DNA of 64,000 nt, taken from positions 372,001-436,000 of the forward strand of contig JANYFY010000009.1 of assembly GCA_025359565.1 (NCBI GenBank), in the 5' to 3' direction. Within the stretch, counting starts at the first letter, position 1; each line of letters starts with the position of its first letter. Source of the DNA: Gammaproteobacteria bacterium (GTDB taxonomy: Bacteria > Pseudomonadota > Gammaproteobacteria > Steroidobacterales > Steroidobacteraceae). Below are positions 11,822 to 18,940 of this stretch, in pieces. The notes beneath the pieces were generated by a model that made no database searches, was not told the origin of the DNA, and saw only the letters and a program-made list of their open reading frames with translations. Made by a program: the position numbers and the translations under genes.

Positions 11822-12250
11822 ATGATTATTTTGGATACTAATCTTGTGTCTGAACCGCTCCGACAAAAGCCTGCTGCCGAGGTGTTAGCATGGTTGGATA
11901 GGCAAGCGCCGCAAACGCTTTACATCACGACGATTACCTTGGCCGAGTTGCACGTGGGGGTCAGCCGTCTACCCTTAGGAAAACGACGCAAGGCGTTGCA
12001 AGACGCGACAACAGATGTGATCGCTGGGTTTAGAGGGCACGTTCTGGCGTTCGAGCAGGATAGTGCTCGAGCATTTGGGCGGGTGGTTGCGGGGAGGCAA
12101 GCAGCCGGGAATCCGATGCACTATGCCGATTGCGCGATCGCGGCTATTGCGGCTGTCGCGGCTATGCATGGGTTTATTCTGGCGACCCGAAATGTACGGG
12201 ACTATAAGGGAGCTGGAATCGCATTGATCGACCCTTGGCATGCCCCGTAA
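11822..12250 (+). CDS. vapC: PIN-domain toxin, FitB/VapC family, apparently orphan
   Basis: This 142-residue protein is a PIN-domain ribonuclease of the VapC/FitB group. The first acidic residue is in IILDTNLVSE (Asp5), the second in TLAELHVGV (Glu42), and the third pair in HYADCAIAAIA (Asp in YADC), with the usual closing stretch FILATRNVRDYKGAGIALIDPW. VapC toxins normally cut tRNA or rRNA and are paired with a DNA-binding antitoxin just upstream. Here the 240 bp upstream show no ribbon-helix-helix or AbrB-like frame. A short frame ends with TGA overlapping the ATG (ATGA at 11822), but it is under 30 codons with no recognisable start. It may have lost its antitoxin. Confidence 0.82.
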   Translation: MIILDTNLVSEPLRQKPAAEVLAWLDRQAPQTLYITTITLAELHVGVSRLPLGKRRKALQDATTDVIAGFRGHVLAFEQDSARAFGRVVAGRQAAGNPMHYADCAIAAIAAVAAMHGFILATRNVRDYKGAGIALIDPWHAP

Positions 12251-12470: not shown

Positions 12471-12887
12471 CTAGGTAAAAGGATTGACCATCGGGACCCC
12501 AATAGGTCGGTAGTGCGCGGCATTCCGAGTTACCACGGTCAGGTCGTGAATCAGCGCTGTAGCTGCGATCTGCTTATCGAGCGAGTTCTCAGGATGTTGC
12601 GCACGCAGTCGTCCCCAGATCTGGGCCGCCTCCTGATCAAAGGGTAAGATGGCATCTGCAAAATCGATGGTCAGGCGATCAAGCCAGCGCTCAAGGCGCG
12701 CAGACTGCGCAGAGTCCCCGCGGTGCCTGATAATTTCTACTCCCTGCCGAAGTTCGCCAATAGTAATTGCGGATAAGAACAGGGCAATGTTGTTCCGACT
12801 CGCGTTACCAAAGAATTCGCGCACGCCGGCATTGGCTTTGCCGCCCTTGCGTGCATCGCTGATCACATCGGTATCAACCAGAAACAC
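12471..12887 (-). CDS. vapC: PIN-domain toxin of a FitAB/VapBC pair
   Basis: This 138-residue PIN-domain protein is a predicted endoribonuclease toxin. The metal-binding acids are visible in FLVDTDVISD, ITIGELRQGVE and NSLDKQIAATALIH, and the family ending LTVVTRNAAHYRPIGVPMVNPF is present. The start is GTG at 12887, 2 bp after the antitoxin stop at 12890, so the two genes form an operon read on the minus strand. An ATG two bases upstream is in the wrong frame. The 220 bp between this gene and the plus-strand PIN gene at 11822-12250 contain no recognisable gene. Confidence 0.88.
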   Translation of the reverse strand: MFLVDTDVISDARKGGKANAGVREFFGNASRNNIALFLSAITIGELRQGVEIIRHRGDSAQSARLERWLDRLTIDFADAILPFDQEAAQIWGRLRAQHPENSLDKQIAATALIHDLTVVTRNAAHYRPIGVPMVNPFT

Positions 12888-12889
12888 AT

Positions 12890-13111
12890 TCAGTCTCGAT
12901 GATCTAACTGAATTCTGGCGAAGTCTTTGTCGTGGCCAACGTCAGGCATAGATGCCAGTACATCAGCCAACAGCAGTCGCCGGGGTCCTCGAAGCGCCGC
13001 CTGAAGAATTTCCCGATGTTCCTGTTCAGCGCTGCGATTATGCTTCGCAGCACGTAGCTTCAGTGCCTTAACCAATTCGTCCGCTACCTTACGAACCATA
13101 AGTTGCGCCAT
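12890..13111 (-). CDS. vapB: FitA-like ribbon-helix-helix antitoxin
   Basis: The frame is open from 13171, but the family start MAQLMVRKVADELVKALKLRA gives ATG 13111, with AGGAG about 9 bases upstream. The 73-residue protein matches FitA/StbC-type antitoxins: an N-terminal beta strand (QLMVRKV), then helices with LKLRAAKHNRSAEQEHREIL, a ribbon-helix-helix DNA-binding fold, and a C-terminal tail that would wrap the toxin. It would neutralise the PIN toxin encoded immediately downstream and repress the shared promoter in the 208-bp gap to 13319, where I see no other gene. Confidence 0.85.
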   Translation of the reverse strand: MAQLMVRKVADELVKALKLRAAKHNRSAEQEHREILQAALRGPRRLLLADVLASMPDVGHDKDFARIQLDHRD

Positions 13112-13319
13112 TGACCTGCTCCTAAGTACTTCAATGCTAGCAATGATAGTGCGCGGCAAACCGGCATGCAAGCAGTGCTAGCACTTTCAGCATCGACATG
13201 GTTAGGCTGTTCTTGGCAGCCCGATGGCTGGCATTGCCCGACGTCGGCTCCGATCGAGTTGACCATTTCAGTTGATTTTCCGCCAACGATCGGTGAATAG
13301 CACTTAATGACCGTTTAGT

Positions 13320-14504
13320 TTGCGCTGGAACCTTAAGTCCGACGGCATTAGGGTATTTACTTATGACGTTGAGAATCGTTTGCTGTCTGTCGTGGGCAGT
13401 GCTGGGCTCAATCTAGCTTATGATCCGTTGGGCCGATTGTCGCAAACGACGCCGGGTGGCGTTTCCACTGTTTTTTTATACGATGGCGATCGATTAGCGG
13501 CTGAATATAACTCAGTGGGTACATTGTTACGGCGTTACGTGCATGGACCCGGCGTGGATGACCCTGTAGTGTGGTACGAGGGACCCGGGGTAACGGATCG
13601 ACGATGGCTGCATAGTGATGAGCGTGGGTCGGTGATTGCAGTAACCGATGGCGCAGGGGCTGCGACAATTTATCCTTACGGACCCTATGGTGAGCCCAAT
13701 ACGTGGACCGGATCTCGATTCCGCTACACGGGGCAAATCGTATTGCCGGAGGCACAGCTGTATCACTACAAAGCGCGCGTATACGATCCAACGTTGGGGC
13801 GATTTTTACAAACTGATCCAATTGGGTACAAGGATGATTTAGACCTGTACACCTACGTCGGCAATGATCCGACGGATAAGACAGATCCCACAGGTCTTGA
13901 GGCAGACGACAATAAAACGTTTGCAGTCGAAGCCAATACGTGTAGCAGGGTGGGCGGGTCATCTTGTTCCGGGAGCTACGCGGGCGATGGGACCCACGGC
14001 AATGCCCAATCGACGGGTACGCCAGGGCACGCGGAGACAAGCAAGAATGTAGCCAATCAAATGGTGCAAAGTGGAAAATACGAGACGGTTCATCTCAATC
14101 AGAAATTATCAACGATAACAGGTGACGCTGCAGCCGGGGGTCAGCAGCCGGACGTTGCGGGAGTTAAGCCTGGCGGTGTAGTTGATACTGTAGAAGTTCC
14201 CTCCAAAACGCAGACGACTGCGCAGATGGATGCTAAGGGTGCAGCAATGCAAAAGAAACTCGAATCCATTGGAAGGCCCGGGGGTAAGGCATATATTGTG
14301 CCAATCGGTGGAAAAATGAGTGGTGCTGGGAGCGTAAACGCTCTAATAACGGTGGCTATAGGGGGCTATATCTTCATGCAAAATCCAGGCGTGCAGGGCG
14401 CAAAAGATGCGGCGGCTGGGATGGTCGAGGGTGCATTTTGTGGACTCATGGGGGGATGTAGTTCGACCGCCAGCGGCAATGCAGCCGACGGATTGGCGCG
14501 CTGA
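13320..14504 (+). CDS. RHS-repeat tip protein with candidate nuclease C-terminus (5'-truncated)
   Basis: The 394-residue frame starts at a TTG only three codons after an in-frame stop (13308) and begins inside an RHS repeat (FTYDVENRLLSVV), so the long shell-forming part of the protein is missing. Residues about 93-190 carry the RHS core signature, with RVYDPTLGRFLQTDPIGY at 153-170 ending YVGNDPTDKTDPTGLE. After it comes a variable tip (about 195-330). Within it, QQPDVAG (Asp278) followed by VDTVEVPSK (Glu292, Lys296) resembles the PD...E-x-x-(S)-K pattern of restriction-endonuclease-like toxins; this is inference. The last 60 residues are small and hydrophobic. No secretion signal or transport gene is nearby. 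It looks like an orphan tip left by recombination. Confidence 0.72.
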   Translation: MRWNLKSDGIRVFTYDVENRLLSVVGSAGLNLAYDPLGRLSQTTPGGVSTVFLYDGDRLAAEYNSVGTLLRRYVHGPGVDDPVVWYEGPGVTDRRWLHSDERGSVIAVTDGAGAATIYPYGPYGEPNTWTGSRFRYTGQIVLPEAQLYHYKARVYDPTLGRFLQTDPIGYKDDLDLYTYVGNDPTDKTDPTGLEADDNKTFAVEANTCSRVGGSSCSGSYAGDGTHGNAQSTGTPGHAETSKNVANQMVQSGKYETVHLNQKLSTITGDAAAGGQQPDVAGVKPGGVVDTVEVPSKTQTTAQMDAKGAAMQKKLESIGRPGGKAYIVPIGGKMSGAGSVNALITVAIGGYIFMQNPGVQGAKDAAAGMVEGAFCGLMGGCSSTASGNAADGLAR

Positions 14505-14565
14505 AGCGGGCTGCCACCCCGTTAGGTATTTGACCATGTTGCATTCCAATGAGAGGTGAGTTCTG

Positions 14566-14898
14566 GTGAGCGACTCGCCGATCCAAAATCTTGACTCGTT
14601 TGATGTCGTCGGACGGCGTATGGATGGGGGCATTGACCTTGTGATTGTCGCAAGCGGTCCCATCGACGGCTCACAAGGTACTTTAAATCTATTGAGAATT
14701 AAGATCTCAAATTATATTGATGAAGTATCCCGTGACGATTTCCTAGTCAAAAATGGACGCAATCGCGGGGCGCAAATTACGATTTGTGTTGTGTGTCCGT
14801 ATCCTGTCGATCCTCAGGCATTTGAACTAATTGAGGCGATGCGCCCGCTTGCACAGCGAAGCGGGGCGGATATTGTTTTTAAGAGCGCTATGGCGTGA
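14566..14898 (+). CDS. DUF6572-like protein, possible immunity or accessory to the RHS tip
   Basis: This 110-residue protein starts with GTG at 14566. Its N-terminal half, IQNLDSFDVVGRRMDGGIDLVIVASGP followed by a LNLLRIKISNYIDEV helix, resembles the DUF6572 family (small proteins of unknown function). The other half has a beta strand ITICVVCPYPVD and a C-terminal helix. It lies 61 bp after the RHS-tip gene on the same strand, the place where immunity genes usually sit. That position is the only reason to suggest immunity; no function is known to me. Its 3' end overlaps the end of the broken SIR2 gene on the other strand. Confidence 0.65.
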   Translation: MSDSPIQNLDSFDVVGRRMDGGIDLVIVASGPIDGSQGTLNLLRIKISNYIDEVSRDDFLVKNGRNRGAQITICVVCPYPVDPQAFELIEAMRPLAQRSGADIVFKSAMA

Positions 14899-15298: not shown

Positions 15299-16825
15299 TT
15301 AACCCACTTGTTGCGTGACTAGTCCTGCTACCAGTTGGCAGAACGGCCTTATATCTTGGCTTACGCTGGCAGCCTCAAGTGATGCCATATATTCGTCCCG
15401 CCGGTCCAGTGGCACGATTGTCCATGGATATCCACCGGAAGCCAGCATGACGTTCATCAAGAAACGGCCCATGCGTCCGTTGCCGTCAAAATAGGGGTGT
15501 ATCCACACAAAGATGAAGTGACCAAGGACCACGCGAACTGCCGGTTCCGGCTCTTTTTGAAGCAATTCAAAGAATGCAGGCATGAGTTCCCGCACGGCTT
15601 CCGGCCGCGGCGGCGAGTGCATCGACCGACGGATATAAACGGGTCCATTGCGATATCCCGCGAGGTCGGATGCCTTGATGATGCCCGCTGTGACGCTGGG
15701 GCCAAAAAGCTCGCGATACCAGCTAGCATGATCGTGGTCCGCAACGCTGCCCGCGTTCTCGTTACCTAAAACGCGTTCAATGCTTTTCTTGACGCTCTGG
15801 AACGATTGCCAGTACCCGCGCGCCGCTAATGCGTCGCGGTGGTCCTGATCGCCTTTGATGCTGTCCGGATTCCAGTTGCCGGAACGCACACGCTCGATAA
15901 GGTCTGCGCTGACGCGGTAGCCTTCAATAGAGAGAGAGTTATAGGCGTCAGCAACGTACACCTCCTCAATATGCTTGAGGTAAGACGCCGGGTTTTTTGT
16001 GACCCCGGGGGAGGTAGGAAAGTGCTTGAGGACATCTTCCCGCATGCGGGCCCAATTCATAGTAAGGCGATTGATGTACGGTGAAACGTCGCGCGTGCCG
16101 AGAGTGATCTGCTGCGAGTCCACAAAAGGGTCTGTTTCGGGGACGGTGTAGCCAGCGGCCACCATGGTGGCGACGATGTCGTCCGCAATCCGCGTCCGCC
16201 CGATATTGCGAAACGCCCCGGCCAGACGGCCCGCGATCTTGCTGTGGCCTCCGGCGAGTAGTTGATCCAGGACCTCGGAGGCGTCCTGCACCATGGCAAG
16301 TGCTGCGCGCATTTCAACGGGATGCGCGGCATATTGCGAGGCCGCGCTGTTTAGCAAAGCCGTAGTCAATGGGAAAGTGCGGAGGCCGTCCCGGATCTCT
16401 ATGTCCTTGGGCGGAGGGACCGCAAGCCGGAGATCGAACATCGATGTGCCGTAGGGCATCGGCGTCGGTTTGTTGCCTCCCTTGGGAGAGCGTACCAGTA
16501 GTTGCTTTGGGACCGTCCAGTCGCCCGTGTGAAGGCTCAAAGACTGTTCATGGCTCAGACACCAGTCCGACCCGAACCTCTCCGTCAGATACTCAGCGCA
16601 AAATCCCCAGAAAGCGGCGTACCACGCCGTGCTCTCCCCCGGGGGCTCGTCGGGGCGACCGGCGATATACCATCCCCGCATGACTTCGCGGATGAAGCCA
16701 TTTTTGACGAGGCGCTCGCGGTGCGTGCGCGACAAAGCCGTGGCACGAATCGCAACGTGCCCGTCATCCTGAAGTGATTTCAAGAGGGCGAGGGATTCCG
16801 CCAGCTTGTCCGAAGGTAATGCCAT
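15299..16825 (-). CDS. Fic-domain AMP transferase with AbiEi-like N-terminal domain
   Basis: The 508-residue protein has two parts. Residues about 1-150 (RATALSRTHRERLVKNGFIREVMRG onward, then SHEQSLSLH) resemble the winged-helix and transcription-regulator region of AbiEi-type antitoxins. The C-terminal half is a Fic domain with the complete active motif HPYFDGNGRMGRF at 443-455 (catalytic His443). An inhibitory-helix motif, NSLSIEG at 296-302 (Ser297...Glu301-Gly302), precedes it, as in class II Fic proteins that are autoinhibited in cis. Fic enzymes usually transfer AMP to target proteins. The stop is 61 bp beyond the SIR2 remnant start. The promoter region carries four repeats 24 bp apart, a likely operator for its own N-terminal domain. 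No separate toxin or antitoxin partner is adjacent. Confidence 0.88.
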   Translation of the reverse strand: MALPSDKLAESLALLKSLQDDGHVAIRATALSRTHRERLVKNGFIREVMRGWYIAGRPDEPPGESTAWYAAFWGFCAEYLTERFGSDWCLSHEQSLSLHTGDWTVPKQLLVRSPKGGNKPTPMPYGTSMFDLRLAVPPPKDIEIRDGLRTFPLTTALLNSAASQYAAHPVEMRAALAMVQDASEVLDQLLAGGHSKIAGRLAGAFRNIGRTRIADDIVATMVAAGYTVPETDPFVDSQQITLGTRDVSPYINRLTMNWARMREDVLKHFPTSPGVTKNPASYLKHIEEVYVADAYNSLSIEGYRVSADLIERVRSGNWNPDSIKGDQDHRDALAARGYWQSFQSVKKSIERVLGNENAGSVADHDHASWYRELFGPSVTAGIIKASDLAGYRNGPVYIRRSMHSPPRPEAVRELMPAFFELLQKEPEPAVRVVLGHFIFVWIHPYFDGNGRMGRFLMNVMLASGGYPWTIVPLDRRDEYMASLEAASVSQDIRPFCQLVAGLVTQQVG

Positions 16826-16836
16826 GATCGAATCCG

Positions 16837-16932
16837 ATATTTAGGGTAAGGTGTTTTCCTATAATTAGGTTTTATTATTTTACTATTTTTAGGTTTTGGA
16901 GTCAACCAATATTTAGGTTTAGAGGCAGAGCC
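16837..16932. promoter_or_regulatory. four direct repeats with exact 24-bp spacing upstream of the Fic gene
   Basis: Four 24-bp units begin at 16837, 16861, 16885 and 16909. Each starts with a match to ATATTTAGGTTTT: ATATTTAGGG, ATAATTAGGTTTT, ATTTTTAGGTTTT and ATATTTAGGTTTA. The core TTAGG is at 16841, 16865, 16889 and 16913 without any deviation in spacing. On the coding strand of the Fic gene the core reads CCTAA. The array starts 12 bp upstream of the Fic ATG and lies in AT-rich DNA within GC-richer surroundings, so it most likely covers the promoter. The AbiEi-like N-terminal domain is the obvious candidate binder. The rest of the gap to 17141 is described under the next entry. Confidence 0.7.
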
Positions 16933-17042
16933 CCTAGTATTTTGAATGTATTCATAAGGCTTTGACTTCCGGGGATAACCCACCTTTATTCAAAGATGAA
17001 GTCACGAAAGGCCATTTTAGTTCAGTTCAGGGCCATTTCAGG

Positions 17043-17125
17043 CTCCCGAAGCGGTCATATCGGGAGTCATATTGTTTAGTTCTGTAACCTTTAGGGCGGA
17101 CTGCGTCAGCAGATCCGCCCTTTTT
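17043..17125 (+). terminator. hairpin followed by a rho-independent terminator
   Basis: CTCCCGA at 17043-17049 pairs with TCGGGAG at 17060-17066. Further on, GGGCGGA at 17094-17100 pairs with TCCGCCC at 17114-17120 and is followed by TTTTT at 17121-17125, a classic intrinsic terminator for plus-strand transcription. No plus-strand gene precedes it in the 16826-17093 gap, so it either ends an unseen small RNA or is the leftover of a lost gene. It lies 17 bp before the integrase start. Confidence 0.6.
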
Positions 17126-17141: not shown

Positions 17142-17629
17142 ATGAGGCGATGGGATCGGTTTTTGGACAGTTATAGGGAGCAGTACGCCGCTCGCGGCAT
17201 CTGTGCGGAGCGAGTTAAGACCACCCGAGCGACGCTGGAACGCTGGGGCGGTTGGATGAAGCAGCGGCGACCGCGCGTGATTCTGGAACGCGTCGATGCT
17301 GATCTTTTGGTGCGGTACATCGAGAGCCGCACAAGCTTTCGAGCCAAGTCCACGGTGTACGGGACTCTCTCGACGATGCGTGGCATGGGCGATTACCTCG
17401 TGCGCGAAGGCATCTGGCAGATAAACCCGCTGCGCTGGATGAAGGGACCAAGGGTCACGCCATACAGCCGCCTGCCGCGGCGGATTGATCGCGAGCACAG
17501 GCAGGCGCTGTGGCGCGAAGCAGCCAACAAGCACGGCGAGTTTCATCGCCATCAGGGGATCGCCGTGCTCGCTTTGTTGTACGGCACCGGACTGCGGCGC
17601 GGGGAGATTGTCGCGCTTCAAGTCAAGCC
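17142..17629 (+). pseudogene. tyrosine recombinase/integrase, 5' part, cut by IS3-family element
   Basis: The start ATG 17142 follows GGAGAGGGAC. The fragment has the N-terminal SAM-like core-binding domain (about residues 1-95) and the beginning of the catalytic domain up to GTGLRRGEIVALQ, whose arginine is the first catalytic Arg of the XerC/D-like family. The remaining R-H-x-x-R and tyrosine part is missing because an insertion sequence begins at 17630; the open frame runs on 14 codons into the element and stops at 17672. The gene lies beside the 3' end of tRNA-Asn, a common integration site, so it probably brought in the island. Confidence 0.82.
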
Positions 17630-17668
17630 GGACAAAATGCCTGAACCAGAAAGCGAGACTTTCACTGC

Positions 17669-18640
17669 TTAGGCCGCCTCGATAAATCGCTGCGGGTTGG
17701 TCATTCTACGATGCGCACGGGCCGCAGCTATTCGCCGCGCACGCTCGTCTGGAACCTCGTCCGGTTCTCCATGATGCCAGGTTGCCGGCGTCCTGTAACC
17801 CAAGGTCGCAGGTAATCGCTCTTCGTTGTATTGATGCATGAGCTTGGCGATGAGCGCTTCGGCCTGCCGATAATGACTGCCGTAGTCGTTGTCACTCTCG
17901 GCGCGCACGGTGCCATTGAAGCGCTCCACAATACCGTTCGATTCTGGGTGCCGCGGCCTCGTTTTGATGTCGATCAGGTTATGCGCCTTGATCACCGCCG
18001 CGACGTCCCGATTGACGAACTCACTGCCGTGATCGTGCACGACGCGAGGTCTGGAGACTTTGGATGCTTCAAGCGCCGCCTGCAGCTCGATCGCCACCGA
18101 TTTGCCGTCTAGACTCATCAGCAGCTTGTGGTGCACGTTATAGCGGCGGTAGGCGTCAACAAAGCTCACCAGGAAGTAAAATCGGGCAGCGACCCCTACG
18201 TACATGACGTCGGTATGCCATTGCTGATTCGCTCCATTGGGTCGGAAGTTGTATTCACCGCTGGAGACCGTCGATCGCTTCCAGCGCGATAACAGGTCGG
18301 CATCGCTCAAAACCCGGTAAATCGTGCTCTCGCCGACGCAGGCGACGCCCGCATCGACCCTCATCCAAGTGAGCTTGCGATAGCCGATCTTCGGGTACTT
18401 GAGGGCAAACTCACAGATCTTTGCACGCTCCTCGGGCAGCACCTCGTACACTCGGCAGGGCTTCGCCGTCTGATCCTCCAGGCTATCGCGCCGCTTCCAC
18501 GCGTAATAGACGCTGCGCGGCATGCCCTAAGGCGGCGAGTGTGCGATACACCCGCCACCCGGAACGTCGCTTGGTTTGTTCTACAATCTGCATCACGGCC
18601 GCTTTCGTCTCCGCCGGTACTCGATATAAATCTTCCAACC
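17669..18640 (-). pseudogene. IS3-family transposase OrfB, frameshifted
   Basis: The catalytic domain is intact from MPRSVYYAWKRRD (codon at 18523) to the stop: a DDE/rve integrase core with the acids in WHTDVMYV, VHDHGSEFVN and ESNGIVERFNG, ending RRMTNPQRFIEAA. The N-terminal portion (LEDLYRVPAETKAAVMQIVEQ to RTLAALG) lies in a different frame between about 18524 and 18640. Joining them needs one base removed at TTAGGG(C)ATG near 18524. Family members read ALG-x-xRS without a break there, so this looks like a one-base insertion that splits the protein. The copy is probably not self-mobile. Confidence 0.75.
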
Positions 18641-18940
18641 TCAAAGCTTTTTTTTCAACTCCAAATTCTCCGCCGTGATCTCCGCGATCACCGCCCGCAG
18701 ACGCTCCATTTGCGCCTTGTGCCGAACCTCCGGATCCTCCTTGCGTGGCGTTCGCTGCGCATCGCGCTTCAGCGCTACCGCTGAGCCGCCCTGGGCCACC
18801 GCCCGCCAGCGATAAAACACCGACACTGCCAACGCATGGCGCGGGCACACCTCGCTCACGGTCACCCCGGGCTGATCCGCCTCCTTCAAAATCTCCAGTT
18901 TCTGCTCCGCCGTAAATCGTCGAATTTCGCGTTTGCTCAT
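18641..18940 (-). CDS. IS3-family transposase OrfA
   Basis: The 99-residue protein MSKREIRRFTAEQKLEILKEA... has the helix-turn-helix of IS3/IS911 OrfA (residues about 8-50) and a C-terminal leucine-rich coiled coil (RLRAVIAEITAENLELKKKL). Its last codons are a run of A residues (AAAAAAAAG), the usual site of programmed -1 frameshifting into OrfB to make the fused transposase. The downstream OrfB frame begins directly in the -1 phase, as expected, before it is broken further along. Confidence 0.85.
   Translation of the reverse strand: MSKREIRRFTAEQKLEILKEADQPGVTVSEVCPRHALAVSVFYRWRAVAQGGSAVALKRDAQRTPRKEDPEVRHKAQMERLRAVIAEITAENLELKKKL

Follow-up and report, generated by a model that had tools for sequence, protein, structure and literature searches.

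The four direct repeats in front of the gene for a 508-residue Fic fusion protein in the window (the whole 64,000-nucleotide stretch of DNA that was analysed) are likely the operator of that gene, read by the gene's own product, and the two together would form a feedback-controlled, one-gene toxin-like module. Among homologues from many species, the array was seen to change in step with the DNA-reading domain, which strongly suggests, from sequence comparison, that the enzyme controls its own gene; by analogy with studied systems, this control is probably a switching off. The first-pass annotation had proposed the fusion protein as reader of its own promoter, an interpretation supported here by co-variation and by the overlap of the array with a promoter-like pair, while repression is what we infer. 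Repression was favored over activation on account of this overlap and of the precedents set by AbiEi and CccR.

On the plus strand, TTAGG occurs at 16841, 16865, 16889 and 16913 with a spacing of exactly 24 bp, as the first-pass annotation had reported; in gene direction, these are four CCTAA cores 24 bp apart, followed by the start codon at 16825. Each TTAGG had also been placed within a match to the 13-base ATATTTAGGTTTT, which stands as an approximate match and not as an exact one, since counting by eye gave one mismatch in each of three copies and three in the gene-proximal copy. The unit length of 24 bp was set by homologue comparison, and four such units fill 16831-16926 without gaps, leaving 5 bases between unit 4 and the start codon. 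No inverted repeat was found in window positions 16500-17100, the array consisting of direct repeats. The units and the promoter-like hexamers among them are as follows:

16903..16926, minus strand: putative operator unit 1, gene-distal, core CCTA at 16914-16917
16879..16902, minus strand: putative operator unit 2, core CCTA at 16890-16893, inside the promoter spacer
16855..16878, minus strand: putative operator unit 3, core CCTA at 16866-16869
16831..16854, minus strand: putative operator unit 4, gene-proximal, core CCTA at 16842-16845
16900..16905, minus strand: -35-like hexamer TTGACT, a consensus match only
16877..16882, minus strand: -10-like hexamer TAAAAT, 17-bp spacer, a consensus match only

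The earlier claim that the 24-bp spacing is not random was borne out. TTAGG-N19-TTAGG matched three times in the 64-kb window, always in the array, against an expectation of 0.08, and this count was reached in none of 100 shuffles of the window; among 200,000 random 150-mers of matched composition, none held a run of three TTAGG at 24-bp intervals. Across the whole genome, a CCTA triple at 24 bp was found in the array only (two overlapping matches), and a reversed-pattern control also gave two matches, so CCTA triples at this spacing are not very rare by chance.

The best promoter-like pair of the window is TTGACT-17-TAAAAT. It falls inside the array, its spacer contains the core of unit 2, and units 1-4 would span the region from the -35 element to just before the start codon. 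By consensus scan, a promoter-like pair fell within the array in 77 of 93 loci, although only 33 of the 93 pairs scored above the 95th percentile of the 20 shuffles made for each, and 14 of these 33 were in the phase of the window. Considered singly, the -35-like hexamer shared this phase in 34 of 93 loci (at unit position 21) and the -10-like hexamer in 31 of 93 (at unit position 20).

The protein combines a predicted DNA-binding half with an enzyme half, whose parts are given below:

15299..16825, minus strand: gene encoding the 508 residues, with an AbiEi-like N-terminal half joined to a Fic domain
16646..16825, minus strand: predicted winged-helix part, residues 1-60
16136..16645, minus strand: predicted AbiEi C-terminal-domain-like part, residues 61-230
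16469..16492, minus strand: hairpin segment RSPKGGNK, residues 112-119, in which 117 and 119 show co-variation with the first base of the core
15302..16024, minus strand: Fic domain and N-terminal helices, residues 268-508
15920..15937, minus strand: inhibitory-type motif SLSIEG ([ST]xxxE[GN]), residues 297-302, in 105 of 107 homologues
15464..15499, minus strand: Fic catalytic motif HPYFDGNGRMGR, residues 443-454, with H, P, G, N and R in 107 of 107 homologues

Membership of the Fic (Fido) family is indicated by the HPxxxGNxR catalytic motif together with a Pfam Fic match. The [ST]xxxE[GN] motif, absent only from L035 and L036, stands N-terminal to the Fic core, an arrangement which we take to denote class II Fic. 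The N-terminal half has the predicted fold of AbiEi and Rv2827c, in which a winged helix precedes the AbiEi C-terminal domain fold, and its second domain is predicted to be nucleotidyltransferase-like. This kinship rests on fold comparison because sequence-level searches failed: the Pfam AbiEi models matched none of 66 homologues at E 0.1, each PADLOC AbiEi model matched at most 3 of 66 (best E 0.0035), and profile comparison with AbiEi groups from relatives was weak (E 0.0047-0.09). An NCBIfam search for AbiEi kinship gave nothing convincing, nor did a PDB sequence search with the N-terminal profile, in which a 5'-deoxynucleotidase was the best match (E 0.023). In whole-model searches, only Fic chains were among the matches listed (best 50 each).

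Homologues were present at the level of the family (32 of 200 genomes, E ≤ 1e-40), the class (32 of 369) and the phylum (14 of 398; the last two at E ≤ 1e-60), counts which take in the window's own genome and some partial matches. A second class contributed 13 of 385 genomes, and further homologues were found in 78 plasmid records at E ≤ 1e-60 (Bacteroides among them), one Desulfobacteraceae genome and eight viral contigs; annotated phage records gave none at E ≤ 1e-20. The N-terminal half on its own matched in 22 of 120 genomes, where 19 of the 25 rows lay in frames of at least 480 aa, which could hold the whole fusion; the remaining six, in frames of 55-359 aa (G007, G085, G102 twice, G119 and a relic in the window's own genome), were taken for fragments. 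The gene looks like a one-gene module carried on chromosomes and plasmids. Besides one full-length copy, the window's own genome holds some remoter Fic matches and a fragmented relative, which is broken into three on contig C17 (L006, 1501-2012), with no 24-bp array seen in front of it by eye.

The first-pass annotation had suggested that the region upstream of homologues be inspected for TTAGG repeats at a 24-bp period, and of these two properties the period is kept while the letters differ between clades. Of 79 loci, tblastn matched 73 at E 1e-30, and 66 offered a full-length gene and sufficient DNA upstream of it; four plasmid loci brought the set to 70, at least two PWM units being present in 65 of them, and a further (hold-out) set of 37 gave 107 loci in all, some of them near relatives, so that the conservation counts are not independent. 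In the 150 bases upstream of the 66 homologues, identical 5-mers recurred 687 times at offset 24 and 373 times at offset 48, as against 87 at offset 23, 40 at offset 46 and 3-33 at the rest; at offset 24, coding and far-upstream controls (the latter from 63 loci) gave 15 each. When no motif was used, offset 24 came out best in 64 of 70 loci and 23 in four (one in a tie that included 24, one in a tie that did not); in the further loci, 24 was best in 31 of 37 and 23 in six. Recurrence at offset 24 reached p ≤ 0.05 upstream of the gene in 66 of 70 loci, compared with 5 of 67 far-upstream and 6 of 70 coding controls; 24 was the commonest single best offset far upstream as well, but in only 5 of 67. 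The upstreams with a best period of 23 instead of 24 were those of L025, L065, L071, L078, L112-L115, L130 and L140. Upstream of the AbiEi genes of related genomes (25 loci, less four that were fragments or a duplicate), p ≤ 0.05 at 24 was seen in 2 of 21 cases (L089 and L097), so the 24-bp array is no general AbiEi trait.

Four was the commonest unit number (54 of 107 loci), with five units in several loci such as L014, L044 and L045. Spacings within chains were 24 in 256 cases, 23 in 11 and 25 in one, the chains preferring 24 by construction. Iterative alignment of the 24-bp unit gave nearly fixed positions at C1, A5 and A7 and a core at positions 9-12, in which the second base is mostly C and the others vary by clade (CCTA, GCTA, GCGA, ACTT, ACTA, ACGT and others). 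The constraint on the period is stronger than that on the letters.

If the protein reads the core, the residues in contact with it should change along with it. In 65 loci, normalised mutual information with the first core base was highest for residues 119 (0.41) and 117 (0.34), both inside the RSPKGGNK segment, and no other column exceeded 0.25. A set of background-corrected mutual-information pairs was led by nearly invariant columns, taken as an artefact and left unused. By inspection, a rule was drawn up in which Arg117 goes with G, otherwise Asn119 with A, otherwise Lys119 with C; Arg with G, Asn with A and Lys with the G opposite C are chemically sensible pairings. The rule was fixed before 37 newly fetched hold-out loci were read. 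It gave a prediction for 22 of them and none for 15, and was right in 20 of the 20 loci with both a prediction and an array, or 19 when L127 and L139, which share all units, are counted once. These predictions comprised 17 A, three G and no C, and several of the loci concerned have near relatives in the training set (such as L083 for L137 and L076 for L135); L117 (wrong) and L142 (right), with one PWM unit only, stand outside the count. In training and hold-out sets together, the rule covers 77 of 92 loci and holds in all 77 (16 G, 26 A, 35 C), the other 15 having 3 G, 2 A, 5 C and 5 T. By single units, it was followed in 57 of 60 cases for G, 99 of 102 for A and 135 of 137 for C.

Such co-variation could in principle be inherited clade background without direct contact, given that relatives share both operator and protein. 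The tree on which this was examined was a quick one, built from the Fic half alone for 92 loci without L139 and L145 (phase misread), and 36 of its 89 inner branches are weak. Its well-supported branches yielded only 5, 3 and 4 sister pairs for the three pairings, none of which reached significance; for G with Arg117, an average of 2.9 of the five pairs agreed and none disagreed (median p 0.25). Against clade background, however, no other tested residue came near in likelihood-ratio (LR) tests of dependent versus independent evolution, run on the 24 most associated of 1070 traits per base: Arg117/G reached 48.4 (next 16.7) and Asn119/A 36.2 (next 17.3), whereas Lys119/C, at 20.6, fell below L414 (22.1) and was not outstanding. 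At the other core positions no residue stood out, and their best ratios of 15.7-20.9 serve as a gauge of background. Joint switches also occur between close relatives, as in L118 (Arg117, GCGA cores) and its sister by the Fic half, L119 (Asn119, ACTA/ACGA cores), in L071/L130 (Arg117, G) against L070/L082 (Lys119, C), and in L056 (Arg117, G) against L050/L055 (Lys119, C). Clade background was consequently considered very unlikely. Repeats some 20 bp long that follow one another head to tail are typical of iterons, and the array might thus be bound by another host DNA-binding, replication or partition factor and not by the Fic protein at all. This was judged extremely unlikely, as the array accompanies the Fic gene on chromosomes, plasmids and viral contigs, its core letters track residues 117 and 119 of the Fic protein, and no neighbour family recurs in more than 5 of 107 loci.

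Two further explanations accept that the protein binds the array. It might activate the promoter, or flip from repression to activation with occupancy, and five-unit arrays (L014, L044, L045) do extend further upstream, to a possible activator place; we regard this as distinctly unlikely, since the promoter-like pair of the window lies inside the array, the usual repressor place, as do those of 77 of 93 loci, and the nearest studied cases, AbiEi and CccR, are reported to repress (PMC3985639, PMC9755527). Alternatively, a nearby separate antitoxin might restrain the Fic half, with the array as an extra layer, much as the standalone Fic defence protein Sofic is reported to have a small downstream antitoxin gene, AS1 (PMC12249575). 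A two-gene system of this kind was held to be unlikely, given the inhibitory-type motif within the protein in 105 of 107 homologues and the lack of any neighbour family at E 1e-8 common to more than 5 of 107 loci, a comparison of ORFs of at least 50 residues in flanks of up to 1.4 kb downstream and 1.6 kb upstream, depending on the extent of each locus, which shorter or very diverged partners would escape.

No cognate AbiEii (DUF1814) toxin gene was seen, to judge from these neighbour families (none in more than 5 of 107 loci) and from the nearest larger ORFs of the window, which match DUF6572 and a tyrosine recombinase. The latter (17142-17672) has a XerC-like N-terminal part only, ends after 176 residues and looks truncated at the insertion sequence that it adjoins, in the 17142-18940 region, with an rve integrase core ORF (17669-18523, minus strand) and an HTH_Tnp_1 ORF (18641-18940, minus strand). 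On the other side, 13320-14898 holds an Rhs core fragment (394 aa, Rhs_assc_core) and then the DUF6572-like gene (under cut-off), possibly an effector remnant with its neighbour. Two PIN-domain genes lie near each other (11822-12250, plus strand; 12471-12887, minus strand), with a FitA-like ribbon-helix-helix antitoxin gene just upstream of the second (12890-13171, minus strand). Elsewhere, on the Rhizobiaceae plasmids of L143, L144 and L145, which have TTAGTG-type repeats, the fusion gene sits in a conjugation control region, between traH and an HTH gene with traM. In L011, L014, L016, L041 and L125, a gene near the fusion, presumably that of peptide chain release factor 3, perhaps marks a preferred insertion place.

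Under the preferred reading, of an operator bound by its own gene product, one protomer would probably occupy each 24-bp unit, head to tail, and about four protomers would cover the -35 and -10 elements, the transcription start and the leader, excluding RNA polymerase. The hairpin 112-119 would read the first core base, Arg117 recognizing G, Asn119 A and Lys119 C. Protein amount would be set by negative feedback, and the Fic enzyme would be restrained by its intramolecular inhibitory helix with no separate antitoxin. What the computation shows is the array and its conservation, the co-variation of residues and bases, the motifs, the predicted fold and a promoter-like pair among the units; that the protein physically binds this DNA and represses, that each unit takes one protomer, and that the enzyme AMPylates and is toxic are steps that we infer. 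A more speculative version, which we doubt, would make the array itself the antitoxin: a head-to-tail filament on the promoter would keep the Fic half inactive, and DNA loss (plasmid loss, invader replication or promoter clearing) would free the enzyme, with a simple hairpin residue-to-base code general to AbiEi-fold second domains.

If the autoregulatory reading is true, a toxin-like enzyme, a repressor and an internal inhibitor are joined in one widespread gene whose operator is recognisable by its 24-bp period. With a natural residue-to-base code, operator specificity could be predicted from a loop of the protein, which is a rare opportunity. Pairs of natural orthologues would allow a direct test of AbiEi-type DNA recognition, and the code points to a family of self-controlling modules insulated from one another. 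As a caution, genes annotated just as 'Fic family protein' can be regulators.

Among the papers listed by searches of open-access full text, none was seen to describe the fusion or its array. Closest by fold are the AbiEi antitoxins of type IV toxin-antitoxin systems, which share the predicted fold of the N-terminal half. AbiEi of S. agalactiae and Rv2827c of M. tuberculosis are described as binding, as monomers, sites of about 23 bp that overlap the promoter, a case of self-repression by a toxin-system protein (PMC3985639, PMC7319586). Unlike these, the window protein is fused to Fic in one chain with no AbiEii partner seen, its operator consists of head-to-tail direct 24-bp repeats instead of inverted repeats, and the Pfam AbiEi models did not match its homologues.

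CccR of Yersinia pseudotuberculosis likewise joins a Fic and a DNA-binding domain in one chain and represses its own promoter, but, as reported (PMC9755527), the order is reversed, Fic being N-terminal and the DNA-binding domain C-terminal, the protein is a secreted effector, and a dimer binds two inverted 10-bp boxes 26 bp apart, in contrast to the direct repeats of the window. The PADLOC model of SoFic also matches the Fic region, with E 7.9e-22 over residues 289-506, a match which stops short of the N-terminal half, and the NCBIfam SoFic model NF046030 gave 30.1 bits against a cut-off of 550, short of a full match; Sofic is reported to have AS1 as a separate small antitoxin (PMC12249575). 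Also close are FICD-type Fic enzymes, which have an N-terminal inhibitory helix; the window protein differs in being bacterial and fused to a DNA-binding half. As it departs from defining features of AbiEi (sequence models, partner toxin, inverted repeats) and of CccR (domain order, inverted repeats), the system was filed as an AbiEi-fold/Fic fusion with a head-to-tail operator, one that, by analogy, probably works like the AbiEi autorepressor and CccR.
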